Of a stretch of 47,817 nt of DNA, positions 40,988 to 47,817 are shown piece after piece; the first letter of the stretch is position 1, and each line of letters starts with the position of its first letter. The notes beneath the pieces were generated by a model, which had not been told where the DNA came from, made no database searches, and saw only the letters and a program-made list of their open reading frames with translations. The stretch is from an uncultured Peptococcaceae bacterium (lineage in GTDB: Bacteria; Bacillota; Peptococcia; Peptococcales; Peptococcaceae): assembly GCA_949743265.1 (NCBI GenBank), contig CATJSX010000141.1, forward strand, positions 1 to 47,817. Direction: 5' to 3'. The position numbers were made by a program, and so were the translations under genes.

Positions 40988-41006
40988 AGTTCGGGAGGTG
41001 TTGTCG

Positions 41007-41699
41007 ATGGCAGTAATTTTGGTTGTAGAAGACGATCCATCAGCCCAACTGTTGACAAAAGTTAAACTAAAAAATCACTTCACAGTGGTTTGCGCTAATG
41101 ACGGCGAAGAAGCGCTAACCATTATGGAACAACAACGTGTTGACTTAATCGTCGCTGATATTATGATGCCAAACATGAACGGGTATCAGTTAGTTCAGTC
41201 ATTAAGGGAAGTCAAAGAAGAAGTACCCATTATTTTGGTAACAGCTCGGGCAGATTTTGAAGATAAACGACGCGGTTTCGCGTTGGGAGCTGATGATTAT
41301 ATGGTCAAACCCATCAATTATGAGGAATTACTTTGGCGAATAGAAGCTCTTTTACGTCGTGCCAAAATTGCTAGCGAGCAGCGCATTGTTATTGGTGAGA
41401 GTATTTTGGACGCCAAAAGTTATCAGATGATCCATAATGGAAAAGATATGGCTTTGTCCAAAAAAGAGTTTGAACTGTTATACAAATTACTTTCTTATCC
41501 TAACGTGATTTTGACCAAAAATCAGTTATTGGAAGAAGTTTGGGGTTATGATTCTGACAGCGATGAAAATACTATCAAAACTCACATCAACCGACTGCGT
41601 AATAAATTAAAAAATGTTGATGATTTTGCCATTATTACAGCTAAAGGACTGGGCTACAAAGCAGAGGTGAGCAAAGACAATGGCTGTCCGTCACACTAG
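41007..41699 (+). CDS. OmpR-family response regulator
   Basis: 230 residues. Receiver domain with acidic pair VVEDDPSAQ near residues 7-10, phosphoacceptor Asp near 51 in VADIMMPNM, Thr/Ala switch VTARAD and Lys near 101 in VKPINYEE. The C-terminal winged helix (LSKKEFELLYKLLSYPNVIL, EVWGYDSDSDENTIKTHINRLR) binds DNA. Start ATG 41007 follows GGGAGGTG; the upstream GTG overlaps that site. It overlaps the kinase gene by 20 bases. Target unknown. Confidence 0.94.
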   Translation: MAVILVVEDDPSAQLLTKVKLKNHFTVVCANDGEEALTIMEQQRVDLIVADIMMPNMNGYQLVQSLREVKEEVPIILVTARADFEDKRRGFALGADDYMVKPINYEELLWRIEALLRRAKIASEQRIVIGESILDAKSYQMIHNGKDMALSKKEFELLYKLLSYPNVILTKNQLLEEVWGYDSDSDENTIKTHINRLRNKLKNVDDFAIITAKGLGYKAEVSKDNGCPSH

Positions 41700-42771
41700 A
41701 AGGCTTGAAAAAATGTATCGTAAGCGTTTGCTAACGGAGTATCGTTTAGGGGATCGAATGTCTTTCTATTTTTCGGTAGTTTTTGTGGTCAAAGTGCTAA
41801 GCGTGTCTGCAATTTGCGCTTTCGTGCTGCTCATAGCTCATTGGATAAGCGGCTTTGGCGGAAAATATTATCTGCTTTATGCGTTAGCTGCTATTCCTAT
41901 CACTAATGCGCTTGTTGGCATTGGCGCATGGGTTTTTGGCGGACAGTGGTATAAACGACAGACTATGTTGGTTGATAGTATCAATCGTGTCGCCAGTGGT
42001 GATTTATCGGTTGTTCTTGATCCTGAGCAAGCTGGCGTTTGGCGTAATGTTTACCAAAATTTTAACGTGATGGTCTCTGGATTAAAAAGCAACCAGCTTT
42101 TTAATGAACGGTTTATCAATAATTTTTCTCACGAATTGAAAACGCCTATTGCTTCTATTCGCGGTTTTGCCGACGTGCTATTAACTGAAGAAATAACCAA
42201 TGAAGAACGCCGCATGTATTTAGAAATTATTGCTGCTGAATCAGCGCGGTTAGCAGATTTATCTCATAACGTTCTCTTACTTTCCAAAATTGATGCACAA
42301 AATTTTATTCCAGTAAAAGCGTTTTTTGAGCTTGATGAACAAATTAAAAACAGTATTATCCTGCTTTCTGCTTCGTGGGAAAAGAAAAATATCAGTTTTT
42401 CGGCAGAACTAGCGCCAGCGCGTTATTGGGGAAATGAAGAATTACTGCATCAAGTATGGCTTAATTTATTGACCAACGCTATAAAATTCACGCCAGTTGG
42501 AGGCAATATTGACGTAAAGTTGACCTTGAACGACGATTGGATAACTATCCTTATAACAGATACAGGAATCGGTATGAGTGAAGAAATGACAAAGCATATT
42601 TTTGAGCCATACTATCAAGGAAATTCTGCCAAAACAACAGAAGGCAGTGGCTTAGGGTTAGCCATTGTTGCGCAAATTATAGAATTGCACCAAGGCAGCA
42701 TCACCGTAAAAAGCACAGAAAATGTCGGCAGCACATTTCAAATATTATTACCATTAAAAAAGCAAGTTTAA
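41680..42771 (+). CDS. Sensor histidine kinase
   Basis: 363 residues. Two membrane helices (about 30-55 and 65-88) with a very short extracytoplasmic loop, then a HAMP-like linker (SINRVASGDLSVVL), the HisKA H-box NNFSHELKTPIASIRG with His near 151, and HATPase motifs N (NLLTNAIKF), G1 (DTGIGMS) and G2 (GSGLGLAIV). The tiny outside loop suggests that it senses within the membrane or through a partner. Cotranscribed with the regulator; ATG lies inside its end, behind GAGGTGAGC. Confidence 0.93.
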   Translation: MAVRHTRRLEKMYRKRLLTEYRLGDRMSFYFSVVFVVKVLSVSAICAFVLLIAHWISGFGGKYYLLYALAAIPITNALVGIGAWVFGGQWYKRQTMLVDSINRVASGDLSVVLDPEQAGVWRNVYQNFNVMVSGLKSNQLFNERFINNFSHELKTPIASIRGFADVLLTEEITNEERRMYLEIIAAESARLADLSHNVLLLSKIDAQNFIPVKAFFELDEQIKNSIILLSASWEKKNISFSAELAPARYWGNEELLHQVWLNLLTNAIKFTPVGGNIDVKLTLNDDWITILITDTGIGMSEEMTKHIFEPYYQGNSAKTTEGSGLGLAIVAQIIELHQGSITVKSTENVGSTFQILLPLKKQV

Positions 42772-42787
42772 AATAAAGATATCAAAC

Positions 42788-42837
42788 GGCGCATGCCAAT
42801 TAGCGAAAAACTAATGGTATGCGCTGTTTTTATGAGT
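42788..42837 (+). terminator. Terminator after the histidine kinase
   Basis: GCGCATGCC plus ATTAG pairs with CTAAT plus GGTATGCGC (one bulged A, one G-T), loop CGAAAA, then TGTTTTT. Confidence 0.8.
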
Positions 42838-42911: not shown

Positions 42912-42940
42912 TTGTCCATCTTGATAGTGAGAGATACAAT
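42912..42940 (+). promoter_or_regulatory. Candidate promoter of the gtr cassette
   Basis: TTGTCC (42912-42917), 17-base spacer, TACAAT (42935-42940), 75 bases before gtrB. Confidence 0.5.
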
Positions 42941-43014
42941 AGTAACAAAATGGAAAATAGCACTATTGTCTTTCGCTATTGGTATTGGATGCAAAAAAGG
43001 AGGTATTGATCATT

Positions 43015-43920
43015 ATGTTATCTGTAGTAATTCCTGCTTATAATGAAGCGGAAAATATTTCTGTAACAGCAATACGCATTGATACTGTGCTCAGCTTTGC
43101 TACTATTGATTATGAGTTGATTTTTGTTGACGATGGTTCTACTGATGAAACTTTTGCTACAATCACAACACTTAGCAATGATAAACAAGTGCGGGGATTG
43201 AAATTTAGCCGCAATTTTGGTAAAGAAGCGGCTGTTATGGCGGGATTGAATTGCGCTAAAGGCGATTGCTGCGCTGTGCTGGACTGCGATTTGCAGCATC
43301 CACCAGAAAAATTGGTAGAGATGTACCGTTTGTGGCAAGAAGGTGCTATGATTGTAGAAGGTATTAAAGTTGATCGCGGCAAAGAAGCCTTATGGTATCG
43401 ACTGTTGGCTAAATTATTTTATGGTATAATGAATTGTTTTGCAGGATTTGATTTGCAGCGTTCCTCAGATTACAAACTTTTGGATCGCAAAGTAGTCGAT
43501 ATTTTGTGTCATTTACCAGAGAAAAAATTATTTTTTCGCGGCTTATCATCGTATTTTGGTTTTGCTAAAGCAGAAGTTTTTTTTGAAGTAGCGCCTCGTT
43601 ATGCTGGAAAAAGCAAATGGAATTTGTTGGGGCTATGGCGATATGCCATCAACAATATTACTGCTTTTTCTGCACTGCCTTTGCAAATAGTAACTTGTAC
43701 GGGCGTTTTTATGTTTATTATTTTTGTAGTTTTGGGTATACAAACGCTGTACAACTATATAACTGGTCAATCAATAGAGGGATTTACCACGGTAATTTTG
43801 CTCTTATTATTTATTGGCAGTACTTTGGCTATTGGATTAGGCGTAATTGGTCATTATATAGCGCGCATTTATGATGAGGTAAAGGGACGGCCAGTATATA
43901 TCGTTGAACAGGAGGTTTAA
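43015..43920 (+). CDS. gtrB: GtrB-type polyprenyl-phosphate glycosyltransferase (GT2)
   Basis: 301 residues. A cytoplasmic GT-A domain begins VVIPAYNEAENI and has FVDDGSTDE, FSRNFGKEAAVMAG and DCDLQHPPEKL (the Dx D-type metal site). Two C-terminal membrane helices (about 225-250 and 260-285) follow. This is the DPM1/GtrB pattern: sugar from a nucleotide donor is put on undecaprenyl phosphate. Start ATG 43015, 10 bases after AAGGAGGT; the frame to 42979 includes that site and is rejected. It stops 1 base before the GtrA start. Confidence 0.92.
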   Translation: MLSVVIPAYNEAENISVTAIRIDTVLSFATIDYELIFVDDGSTDETFATITTLSNDKQVRGLKFSRNFGKEAAVMAGLNCAKGDCCAVLDCDLQHPPEKLVEMYRLWQEGAMIVEGIKVDRGKEALWYRLLAKLFYGIMNCFAGFDLQRSSDYKLLDRKVVDILCHLPEKKLFFRGLSSYFGFAKAEVFFEVAPRYAGKSKWNLLGLWRYAINNITAFSALPLQIVTCTGVFMFIIFVVLGIQTLYNYITGQSIEGFTTVILLLLFIGSTLAIGLGVIGHYIARIYDEVKGRPVYIVEQEV

Positions 43921-43921
43921 T

Positions 43922-44344
43922 GTGTTAAAAAAACTATTGGAAATCGAAATTATACGATTTATTTTGGTGGGATTGTTTAACACTTTTATGGGCGTTGTGA
44001 CCATGTTTGCTTTTTATCATTGGCTTCATTTGGGGTATTGGGGAGCTAGTGGACTATCTTATTTTGTGTGTAGCATCATCTCTTTTTTTCTCAACCGGTC
44101 TTTTACTTTCAGAAGCGACGCCCATTGGTTTCAAGCTGCTTGTAAATTTGCTGCTAATATTGCCGTCTGTTACTTTGCGGCTTATCTGGTCGCCAAGCCG
44201 GCAGTAGTGGCGGTATTAAGCGCCTTAAAATGGCAAATAGAAGCGACGATTACCGAGCAAGTAGCTATGTTGGTAGGCATGGTATTTTTTACAGCATTCA
44301 ATTATTTGGGACAAAAACAGCTGGTTTTTAGAAAGGAAGCGTGA
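43922..44344 (+). CDS. gtrA: GtrA-family flippase-like membrane protein
   Basis: 140 residues with four membrane helices and the family texts EIIRFILVGLFNTFMGVVTM and SFFLNRSFTFR. GtrA proteins are thought to flip polyprenyl-phosphate-glucose across the membrane. It starts with GTG 43922 behind AGGAGG (6 bases), placed inside the gtrB stop region, so translation is coupled. It overlaps the next gene's frame by a few bases. Confidence 0.9.
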   Translation: MLKKLLEIEIIRFILVGLFNTFMGVVTMFAFYHWLHLGYWGASGLSYFVCSIISFFLNRSFTFRSDAHWFQAACKFAANIAVCYFAAYLVAKPAVVAVLSALKWQIEATITEQVAMLVGMVFFTAFNYLGQKQLVFRKEA

Positions 44345-44346
44345 GC

Positions 44347-45987
44347 ATGACAGATTTTTCACACTGGTCGGCATCGGAAATCATGCGGCGATTTTGGCAG
44401 CGAATTGACGGTGCGAGCAAAACGGCTTTTGTAACAGCGCTTATTTTGGGGTTAGTTACACATTTATATTTTTTTGTCAATAAGTTTCCTAACGGCGATG
44501 ATTTAGAAAATATTTATCGTGATTATGCGATGACTGCTAGTGGCCGATGGTTCGATCAAGTAGCAACAGCCTTTAGTTCTTATTATAGTGTACCATGGAC
44601 GACGGGCATAACAGCACTTTTCTTTTTGGCGTTGTCCGTTGGTGTGCTGTGCAGCCTGTTTCATTTTCCTTCTCGATTATATGGCGCGTTGATAGCGGCG
44701 GTAATGGTGACATTTCCGCTATTGGCTTCACAATTCTCTTATTTGTTTTATGCAGATTTATATATGTTGGCACAACTGTTTAGTATTTTGGCAGTATGGT
44801 GTACGGTGCATTTTCGATGGGGATTTTTATTGGGTGCTGTATTGCTGTCTTTAACATTAGGGAGTTATCAGGCGTTTATTAGCGTCACGGTTGTTGTTTG
44901 TTTATTAGTACTGATTCATTATATTTTACAAAATCATTATTTGCTGGGAAATATTTTTTCCTTGACATTAAAAATGCTGTTGATGGGCATTTTAGGTGTG
45001 ATGCTTTATTTTGTTATATTGCAAATGGCACTTCATTATGGGAATATTACGCTGACTGATTATCAGGGTATCAATACCATGGGACAATTACCAGAAGAAA
45101 GTTTAATACAGTTGCTGAAAGCTGCTTTTTTGGCTTTTGGTGCTTATTTTTGGGAAGGCACATTTTTTGAATCGCCTTTTCTAGCTAAAATTTGCTATGG
45201 TGTTTTGACTTTGTTAACGATTTATTGGCTGATAAAAATTATCGTTAGGCGACTAAAAAATCGTGCCTGCTGCGGACAGTTAATAATGCTAATTCCTTTT
45301 TGTCTTGCATTACCCATAGGATACAATCTTATTTTCTTTATAGCACCTCAGGCGTATCTTCATTGCTTAATGCAGCCGGCATATCATTTATTTTGGGTCA
45401 TGCCTATTATCATTTTTTCTGTCGCTTATCCTCATGCAGAATTATTAACGTTGGAACAATTGATTGGTCATTGGGCGTTGGTTATAACGATATTGGGAAT
45501 TGCATTTAATTTTTATCTGACGTGCAATGTTTGTTATTTTCATTTACAACTGCGGTATGAAATGACTTACGCTACAGAATTACGCATATTAGCCCAGATG
45601 GAAAGACAGGAAGGCTATAAACCTGATATGCCAACCTTGGTAATAGGGGCTTTTCCTAACGCGTATCATTCGATTATTCCTCAAGAAACCATAGGTGTTG
45701 TTCAGAATTTAACGGGTATCAAAGGAAATTTAGTTCATCATCGACTCAATTATCAGGGATTTTTTGGCTATTATCTAGGTAAACCGCTTCACTGGGCGAA
45801 TGCTGAAGAAGAAAAACGGATCCGAGCATATTTAAAAGACAATCCTTTGCCTCAATGGCCTATGGAAGGATCTGTTGCCATTATTGGTGATGTGATGGTG
45901 GTTAATATTTGCTCAGAAACTTCTTATCGTCTTGGCAAATCTCAGTATAAGGAGGAAACTGGTTATGCAAACGCAGCGTCTATTTGA
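44347..45987 (+). CDS. GtrII-like membrane glucosyltransferase
   Basis: 546 residues with about ten membrane helices. It matches the Glucos_trans_II pattern: PNGDDLENIY (the acidic first loop), TASGRWFDQVATAFSSYYSV and YADLYMLAQLF, and an extracytoplasmic C-terminal domain of about 130 residues. From family knowledge GtrII proteins take glucose from the lipid carrier and attach it to surface polymers (O-antigen in Shigella). The acceptor here is unknown. Start ATG 44347, 7 bases after AAGGAAG; GTG 44341 would overlap the gtrA stop. The stop overlaps the WYL gene by 23 bases. Confidence 0.85.
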   Translation: MTDFSHWSASEIMRRFWQRIDGASKTAFVTALILGLVTHLYFFVNKFPNGDDLENIYRDYAMTASGRWFDQVATAFSSYYSVPWTTGITALFFLALSVGVLCSLFHFPSRLYGALIAAVMVTFPLLASQFSYLFYADLYMLAQLFSILAVWCTVHFRWGFLLGAVLLSLTLGSYQAFISVTVVVCLLVLIHYILQNHYLLGNIFSLTLKMLLMGILGVMLYFVILQMALHYGNITLTDYQGINTMGQLPEESLIQLLKAAFLAFGAYFWEGTFFESPFLAKICYGVLTLLTIYWLIKIIVRRLKNRACCGQLIMLIPFCLALPIGYNLIFFIAPQAYLHCLMQPAYHLFWVMPIIIFSVAYPHAELLTLEQLIGHWALVITILGIAFNFYLTCNVCYFHLQLRYEMTYATELRILAQMERQEGYKPDMPTLVIGAFPNAYHSIIPQETIGVVQNLTGIKGNLVHHRLNYQGFFGYYLGKPLHWANAEEEKRIRAYLKDNPLPQWPMEGSVAIIGDVMVVNICSETSYRLGKSQYKEETGYANAASI

Positions 45988-46849
45988 AATTGTTTATCTT
46001 TTATTGGATAAAAAACAGATGACAGCGCAGGCATTAGCAGAGCATTTTGAAGTATCGGTTAGAACAATTTATCGCGATATTGACAGATTATCTCAGGCAG
46101 GTGTTCCACTTTATACTAAGCAGGGGCAAAATGGCGGAATTGCTATTTTAGAAGGGTTTAAGCTGAACAAATCGCTGCTTGATCGTGAGGAACAACAGCG
46201 CATCTTGACAGCGCTAGAAAGTTTAGCCGCTACAGGGTTAAATGAGCAAGCGCTTTTAGAGAGGTTGAGCCGTTTTTTTGCTTGCAGTGCCGATTGGATA
46301 AAAGTAGACTATATTGCTTGGGGTGAAGAAAATAAAGGGCTTTTTGAACAATTAAAAGAAGCAGCAATGAAACAACAAACACTTACTTTTGATTATTACA
46401 ACAGCAACGGCGAGTATTCACATCGTAAAGCGGCAGCATTGCGGTTAATATTTAAAAGCCGCTCATGGTATCTGCAAGGATATTGTTATGAGCGGAACGA
46501 TTACCGTTTGTTCAAATTGAAGCGTATGCAAAAAGTTGTCTTGTTAGCAGAATATGGAGAATTTGATGTACCAGATATTGATTTTGAACGACCAAGTCTT
46601 GCGCAAACGGAAATTGTTTTAAAAATAAAATCGACAGCGGCTTGGCGAATTTATGATGAATTTACGCCTGCAGAAATTACTGTACTTGATGACGGTGATT
46701 TTCTCATTCACAGCAAAAGACCGATAGATCGCTGGTTGTTGGGATATATCTTGTCTTTTGGTGAATTGGCGGAAATTTTAGCGCCAAAAACGTTGCGTCA
46801 AAATTTAGCGGCAGAATTGGAAAAAATGCAGCGTATTTATAAGGAATAG
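45965..46849 (+). CDS. HTH/WYL-domain transcriptional regulator (YafY family)
   Basis: 294 residues. N-terminal DeoR-like winged helix (RLFEIVYLLLDKKQMTAQAL, VSVRTIYRDIDRLSQAGVPL) and a C-terminal WYL domain (LRLIFKSRSWYLQGYCYERN, DYRLFKLKRMQKV) plus a WCX tail. WYL proteins sense nucleic-acid-type ligands or small molecules; some control phage defence or DNA repair. Start ATG 45965, 9 bases after AAGGAGG, lies inside the GtrII gene (23-base overlap), so the two are translated together. That makes it a candidate regulator of its own surface-glucosylation cassette (inference). Confidence 0.9.
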   Translation: MQTQRLFEIVYLLLDKKQMTAQALAEHFEVSVRTIYRDIDRLSQAGVPLYTKQGQNGGIAILEGFKLNKSLLDREEQQRILTALESLAATGLNEQALLERLSRFFACSADWIKVDYIAWGEENKGLFEQLKEAAMKQQTLTFDYYNSNGEYSHRKAAALRLIFKSRSWYLQGYCYERNDYRLFKLKRMQKVVLLAEYGEFDVPDIDFERPSLAQTEIVLKIKSTAAWRIYDEFTPAEITVLDDGDFLIHSKRPIDRWLLGYILSFGELAEILAPKTLRQNLAAELEKMQRIYKE

Positions 46850-46969: not shown

Positions 46970-47002
46970 CAAAACGAGACTTCCCATGAAGTCTCGTTTT
47001 TT
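46970..47002 (+). terminator. Rho-independent terminator after the gtr-WYL unit
   Basis: AAAACGAGACTTC and GAAGTCTCGTTTT (46971-46983 and 46988-47000) pair perfectly over CCAT, with a T-run after. It lies 120 bases beyond the WYL stop. A MerR-style operator-like TATAACCTTTAGGTATA occurs just upstream (46942-46958). Confidence 0.85.
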
Positions 47003-47040: not shown

Positions 47041-47817
47041 TTGAAAAAACATATTTCAATGTACTTGATTTTTTGTCTGTTGTTCTGTTTTGTCGGATGC
47101 AGCGGAAAGCAAAATGAATATGATAGAAAATCATAATGAAATATATACAGAAAATACAAAGATATCAGATGTCATTTCTGATTCAGCATTTGGAAATTTT
47201 GGCAGATTGATATTCCCCGTCAACAGTAGATATTACAGCGGCGATACTTTAGGAGAGTTGCAGCTGACATGGTATAATAATATTGATGCCAGTAAGACAG
47301 TAGAGATTGTAAACTATATGAAAATTCATGCCGAAGCGGGCGAAACGATTTTTTACTCTATCTATACTGAAGCAGAAAAAGAAGCTGATCCTGCTAAACG
47401 AGATACAGGATTATTCTTCTTTAAAGGGGAGCCCGGTGCAAAATTTGCCATCTGCAATGCAGGCGGAGGTTTTGCTTATGTGGGAGCCATGCACGACAGT
47501 TTTCCACATGCTTTGGAGCTATCGAAAAAAGGCTATAACGCTTTTGCACTGATCTACCGTCCACATGCACAGACTGCCTGTGAGGATTTGGCAAGGGCAA
47601 TAAGCTTCATTTTTGAGCATGCGGAAGAATTGGAGATTGATACCGATTGCTATTCTCTATGGGGCGGATCGGCAGGTGGGAGAATGACCGCTTATCTATC
47701 TTCTTACGGAACTGACGTATTTGGAGAAAAAAGCTATCCAAAACCGGGAGCTGCAATCATTCAATATACCGGTCACAGAGAATATACAAAAAACGATTCT
47801 CCCACCTATATGTGTGT
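47041..47817 (+). pseudogene. Alpha/beta hydrolase (esterase) with frameshifted lipoprotein signal, cut by window edge
   Basis: TTG 47041 starts a signal peptide, KKHISMYLIFCLLFCF, with lipobox-like FVGC (Cys at 47098-47100), but that frame stops at 47134-47136. One base away the body begins (ATG 47114 is the first start there) and stays open to the window end, about 234 codons. The body has the hydrolase marks NAGGGFAYVGAMHDSF (oxyanion-hole type) and SLWGGSAGGRMTAYLSSYG with the nucleophile Ser in GGSAGG. This is the BD-FAE/acetylesterase shape with an N-terminal domain resembling a carbohydrate-esterase beta region (YYSGDTLGELQLTWYNNID). Either an indel near 47105-47113 broke a secreted lipoprotein esterase, or the body is expressed from ATG 47114 as a cytoplasmic protein. 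The 3' end is missing. Confidence 0.65.

Follow-up and report, generated by a model that had tools for sequence, protein, structure and literature searches.

The question raised by this locus is whether a cell-surface glycosylation cassette and the regulator gene that overlaps its last gene make up a regulatory module, as an earlier note on this DNA had proposed. The window, i.e. the whole stretch of 47,817 nucleotides that was analysed, carries gtrB, gtrA, a GtrII transferase gene (gtrII) and an HTH-WYL-WCX regulator gene (the WYL gene) head-to-tail on the plus strand (Table 1). Pfam assigned all four proteins above cut-off, and the gene coordinates and identities given earlier proved correct upon direct reading of the sequence and by these assignments. 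The account that we favour, at a probability of about 0.7, is that the host, a bacterium without LPS, carries here a three-component transmembrane glycosylation cassette to whose end an ordinary HTH-WYL-WCX regulator gene has been appended.

Table 1. Features of the gtr–WYL locus (positions in the window)
Feature	Position	Strand	Description	Basis
Terminator hairpin after the preceding two-component operon	42784..42829	+	Intrinsic terminator; upstream limit of the gtr transcript	Inverted repeat; RNA folding energy −25.6 kcal/mol (z −5.8), then a T-run
Candidate sigma-70 promoter	42912..42940	+	TTGTCC-N17-TACAAT upstream of gtrB	Consensus scan, 9/12 (weak)
Imperfect inverted repeat	42931..42974	.	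Over the candidate −10; possible operator	13-nt arms, 18-nt spacer
gtrB	43015..43920	+	Membrane-linked GT-A glycosyltransferase; undecaprenyl-phosphate-sugar donor synthesis (predicted)	Pfam Glycos_transf_2 (PF00535), E 1e-26; 5EKP match
gtrA	43922..44344	+	Small GtrA/DPMS-type membrane protein; predicted lipid-linked sugar flippase	Pfam GtrA_DPMS_TM (PF04138), E 6e-18
gtrII	44341..45987	+	GtrII-type multi-spanning (GT-C-like) transferase; extracytoplasmic sugar attachment (predicted)	Pfam Glucos_trans_II (PF14264), E 1e-40; invariant D53-D54
GtrII C-terminal tail	45910..45987	+	25 extra residues, coded by 45910-45984; its coding stretch covers the ribosome-binding site and start of WYL	
WYL-gene Shine-Dalgarno	45950-45956	+	AAGGAGG	Direct sequence reading
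WYL gene	45965..46849	+	HTH_11-WYL-WCX transcriptional regulator, YafY/PafC-like architecture	Pfam PF08279, PF13280, PF25583; PafBC 6SJ9, E 2e-11
Terminator hairpin past the WYL gene	46971..47002	+	Intrinsic terminator; downstream transcript limit	RNA folding energy −17.1 kcal/mol (z −6.8) with a T-run

The cassette itself, as proposed earlier, is supported by its Pfam families and by a full-length match of GtrB to the solved polyprenyl-phosphate glycosyltransferase sll0501 (5EKP; E 9e-64, 297 residues); GtrB thereby qualifies as a GT-A enzyme of this kind with two C-terminal TM helices, and a GtrA-family membrane protein is the second component. The likely joint role of the three genes is to add a sugar to the cell surface: GtrB would charge undecaprenyl phosphate with the sugar on the cytoplasmic side, GtrA would aid flipping of the lipid-linked sugar, and GtrII would transfer it, outside the membrane, to a polymer of the wall or surface or to a protein. 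An Asp-Asp pair early in GtrII (residues 53-54) is invariant across five aligned sequences, as expected in GT-C-like transferases, and the Glucos_trans_II family is related to GT-C families (PMC7801869). When the predicted GtrII structure was compared with the PDB, the GT-C enzymes AftA, STT3 and AftB came out on top, and the fold comparison agrees weakly with the GT-C reading, the matches being weak (E 0.07 or worse, TM about 0.3). The word ‘glucosylation’ used for the locus rests on the family name, and the name GtrII derives from a Shigella enzyme.

As to the acceptor, LpxC was found in 0 of 46 genomes of the class, that of the window included, and Omp85 was absent from the window's genome. 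On this gene content the host is an LPS non-producer and in all likelihood stands outside the Negativicutes, so the Negativicutes framing of the earlier note does not hold; because both LpxC and Omp85 are absent, LPS O-antigen is an unlikely target of the cassette. Its closest functional parallel would be the Gram-positive three-component glycosylation of wall polymers rather than O-antigen serotype conversion. LTA, WTA and secondary wall polymers are established targets of such systems, and those of Listeria (GtlA-GtcA-GtlB) and B. subtilis (CsbB-GtcA-YfhO) share with the window a GT-A synthase, a GtrA-family protein, a multi-spanning transferase and an LPS-lacking host (PMC8035078); unlike them, the window has a third component of the GtrII family (PF14264) and a cassette ending with a WYL gene. 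The gtrA-gtrB-gtr(type) O-antigen cassettes of phages and Salmonella/Shigella comprise the same three functional protein classes, whereas the window has the order gtrB-gtrA-gtrII, no phage context and no LPS biosynthesis, and the Salmonella gtr operons are under OxyR/Dam phase variation, with no WYL control (PMC3688519).

The phage link drawn earlier, by which the locus would be a phage-derived serotype-conversion cassette or a phage-responsive module, is highly improbable. PHROGs does include GtrB-like and GtrC-like phage families that match (phrog_841, E 1e-82; phrog_4829, E 1e-9), and WYL regulators of phage defence are known (PMC9122601, PMC9122588), but the surroundings are chromosomal housekeeping DNA (aro genes, two-component system), 50,697 phage records gave no GtrII match, single-sequence queries returned no GtrII or WYL relative in viral contigs, and PADLOC matched the WYL protein to generic CRISPR-associated WYL models only, the cassette proteins matching no defence model. 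The narrower candidate of a phage O-antigen serotype-conversion cassette was rejected on the lack of LPS genes in the host (LpxC, Omp85) and on a location that is neither phage nor prophage. A plasmid origin was rejected as well; the plasmid match was a single distant GtrII, at 22.7% identity, from Pseudobutyrivibrio.

The genes of the locus are tightly packed. Preceded by the Shine-Dalgarno sequence GGAGG, gtrB ends at 43920, 1 nt before the GTG start of gtrA at 43922; gtrII starts with GTG at 44341 in a 4-bp GTGA overlap with the gtrA end at 44344, with ATG 44347 as an alternative start; and the WYL ATG at 45965 lies before the gtrII stop at 45987, giving a 23-bp overlap with a frame offset of 1. 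This is an ordinary size for the window, since the response-regulator and kinase ORFs upstream of gtrB overlap by 20 bp (41680-41699). That response regulator and histidine kinase pair (40998-42771) lies directly upstream of the cassette region, and a search of 12 further family genomes at E 1e-60 gave no match to its kinase. The earlier description of the WYL gene as ‘translationally fused’ to the cassette is imprecise: two proteins are encoded in different frames, and an AAGGAGG belonging to the WYL gene itself precedes its ATG by 8 nt, so ‘overlapping’ is the preferable word.

Because strong hairpins lie before gtrB and after the WYL gene, with no convincing terminator found between the two, gtrB-gtrA-gtrII-WYL is likely a single transcript, and the WYL gene would now probably be read from the gtr promoter. 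With a hairpin at each end and no convincing promoter just upstream of it, the WYL gene is placed to share the gtr transcript, as had been suggested. Both flanking hairpins were missed by the terminator consensus scan, whose only match fell inside gtrII at 45113 on a GC-poor stem, fewer matches than in shuffles; the promoter consensus scan gave 18 promoter-like sites in the region versus 15.9 expected from shuffles. That the WYL gene is effectively independent, being expressed from a weak promoter inside gtrII and acting on unrelated targets, is doubtful but has its arguments, namely its own strong Shine-Dalgarno and homologues that stand alone in varied contexts; against it, a crude consensus scan detected no plus-strand promoter-like site in the ~600 bp before the WYL start.

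Upstream of gtrB, the imperfect inverted repeat has the core ACAATAGT...ACTATTGT, a pattern with no second occurrence in the genome. Regulation of the gtr genes by the WYL protein is possible, and the repeat invites a specific form of it, in which the WYL protein made from the gtr transcript would bind the repeat over the gtrB promoter and tune surface glycosylation to the WYL ligand. Such autoregulation would suit a shared transcript and a repeat spanning the candidate −10, and adjacent genes are often the targets of those WYL regulators that have been characterised (SiwR, PMC10693628; CapW, PMC9122588), but the repeat, with its 18-nt spacer, was equalled by 20 of 300 shuffles and its perfect 8-nt arms by 87 of 1000 (7-9%), the conserved cassette occurs elsewhere without WYL, and no relative keeps the pairing, all of which makes this form unlikely. 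The repeat may be due to chance, and its reading as an operator was set aside as not separable from it.

Whether the pairing recurs was answered by a survey of gene neighbourhoods. Among 46 genomes of the class, with no other species of the window's genus among them, GtrII was present in six and had a WYL neighbour only in the window. The gtrB-gtrA-gtrII order was kept with no nearby WYL gene in three relatives, G043, G035 and G036 (57-60% identity for GtrB, 54-57% for GtrA and 42-44% for GtrII), in all of which the cassette ends right after gtrII, and a terminator-like hairpin sequence was read by eye just past the gtrII stop in G043 and G035. Conversely, the class contains 11 further homologues of the WYL protein at E ≤1e-20, with identities of 31-43% and one of them a paralogue from the window's genome, and none of the 11 has gtr genes beside it, their contexts being unrelated (partly visible for G029 and G032, which are on short contigs). 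In wider samples, GtrII was above cut-off in 6 of 398 genomes from an even draw of the phylum and in 41 of 391 from a different class within it (a survey centred on G183). The DNA around 57 other GtrII loci was scanned with a WYL profile sensitive enough to pick up the window gene as well as homologues at identities as low as 24%, and no WYL gene was found near any of these loci (0/57; flanks of ~3-8 kb a side, less on about five short contigs).

The gtr–WYL pairing is unique to the window's genome in everything sampled, a sample without congeneric species; within that sample this is the outcome that the earlier note had named as refuting its proposal. Since the pairing is absent at all other loci examined, a conserved module is not supported, and the locus looks like a one-off neighbourhood rather than a conserved regulatory module. 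Likewise, papers searched by keyword for WYL together with gtr or polysaccharide genes, short of a full literature search, described no gtr–WYL module. Two GtrII homologues met in the survey deserve mention in themselves: one (L102, G491:C423, 2818-4401) is cut by a TAA into two adjoining pieces and is possibly a pseudogene, and the other (L032, G034:C13, 3812-5518) has no adjoining gtrA or gtrB and sits beside a tRNA-like sequence and an RsmD-like gene, while G035 and G036, of the same genus as G034, retain the full gtrB-gtrA-gtrII cassette.

The same relatives suggest an origin for the junction. In the class, GtrII homologues of full length stop at a point matching residue 523 of the window GtrII or a few residues from it, whereas the window GtrII continues through the WYL Shine-Dalgarno and the first WYL codons in a tail whose residues 525-548 have a pLDDT <50 in the predicted structure. 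Because the relatives are without this 25-residue tail, we infer that the gtrII–WYL junction is derived: a local rearrangement would have placed the WYL gene directly behind gtrII and removed the gtrII stop and spacer, so that gtrII would read on to the first in-frame stop and leave the 23-bp overlap. Loss of the stop and spacer upon arrival of the WYL gene would be the simplest account. The cassette, the WYL gene and the neighbours have similar GC and GC3 values, which give no sign of a recent foreign origin for cassette or WYL gene. The spacer downstream of the WYL gene was considered as a remnant of a mobile element and rejected, as it occurs once in the genome and yielded no evidence of this kind.

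The appended gene is best read from its sequence as encoding a generic HTH-WYL-WCX regulator. An N-terminal HTH (HTH_11) is followed by WYL and WCX domains, with the WYL motif at residues 168-170 and a conserved RLFKLKRM at 181-188, and the nearest solved relatives, PafBC and PafC, are at a long distance. It shares with PafC, SiwR, CapW, BrxR and YafY-type regulators the HTH-WYL-WCX order and an intact WYL motif with R-x-F-K-L-x-R behind it; its sequence similarity to these regulators is distant, and it does not lie next to DNA-repair or defence genes. A CapW/BrxR-type phage-defence role was rejected, the neighbours being gtr genes and an esterase with no adjoining defence operon. The ligand site varies in the wider WYL family as compared with the defence-associated proteins (PMC9122588), so the nucleotide-type or phage-linked signal suggested in the earlier note is not to be assumed.

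The locus takes three-component glycosylation of the GtrII type into a class that lacks LPS. If the WYL protein does control the cassette, this would be an uncommon WYL role, in surface decoration as against DNA repair or phage defence; at the same time, the case cautions that a gene overlap in one genome does not establish a functional module. Further downstream, at 47045-47815, a lipoprotein-type signal peptide frame (LKKHISMYLIFCLLFCFVGCSGK...) runs into stops and differs from the frame of the following BD-FAE/esterase-like ORF, as if frameshifted, and the contig ends inside this region.
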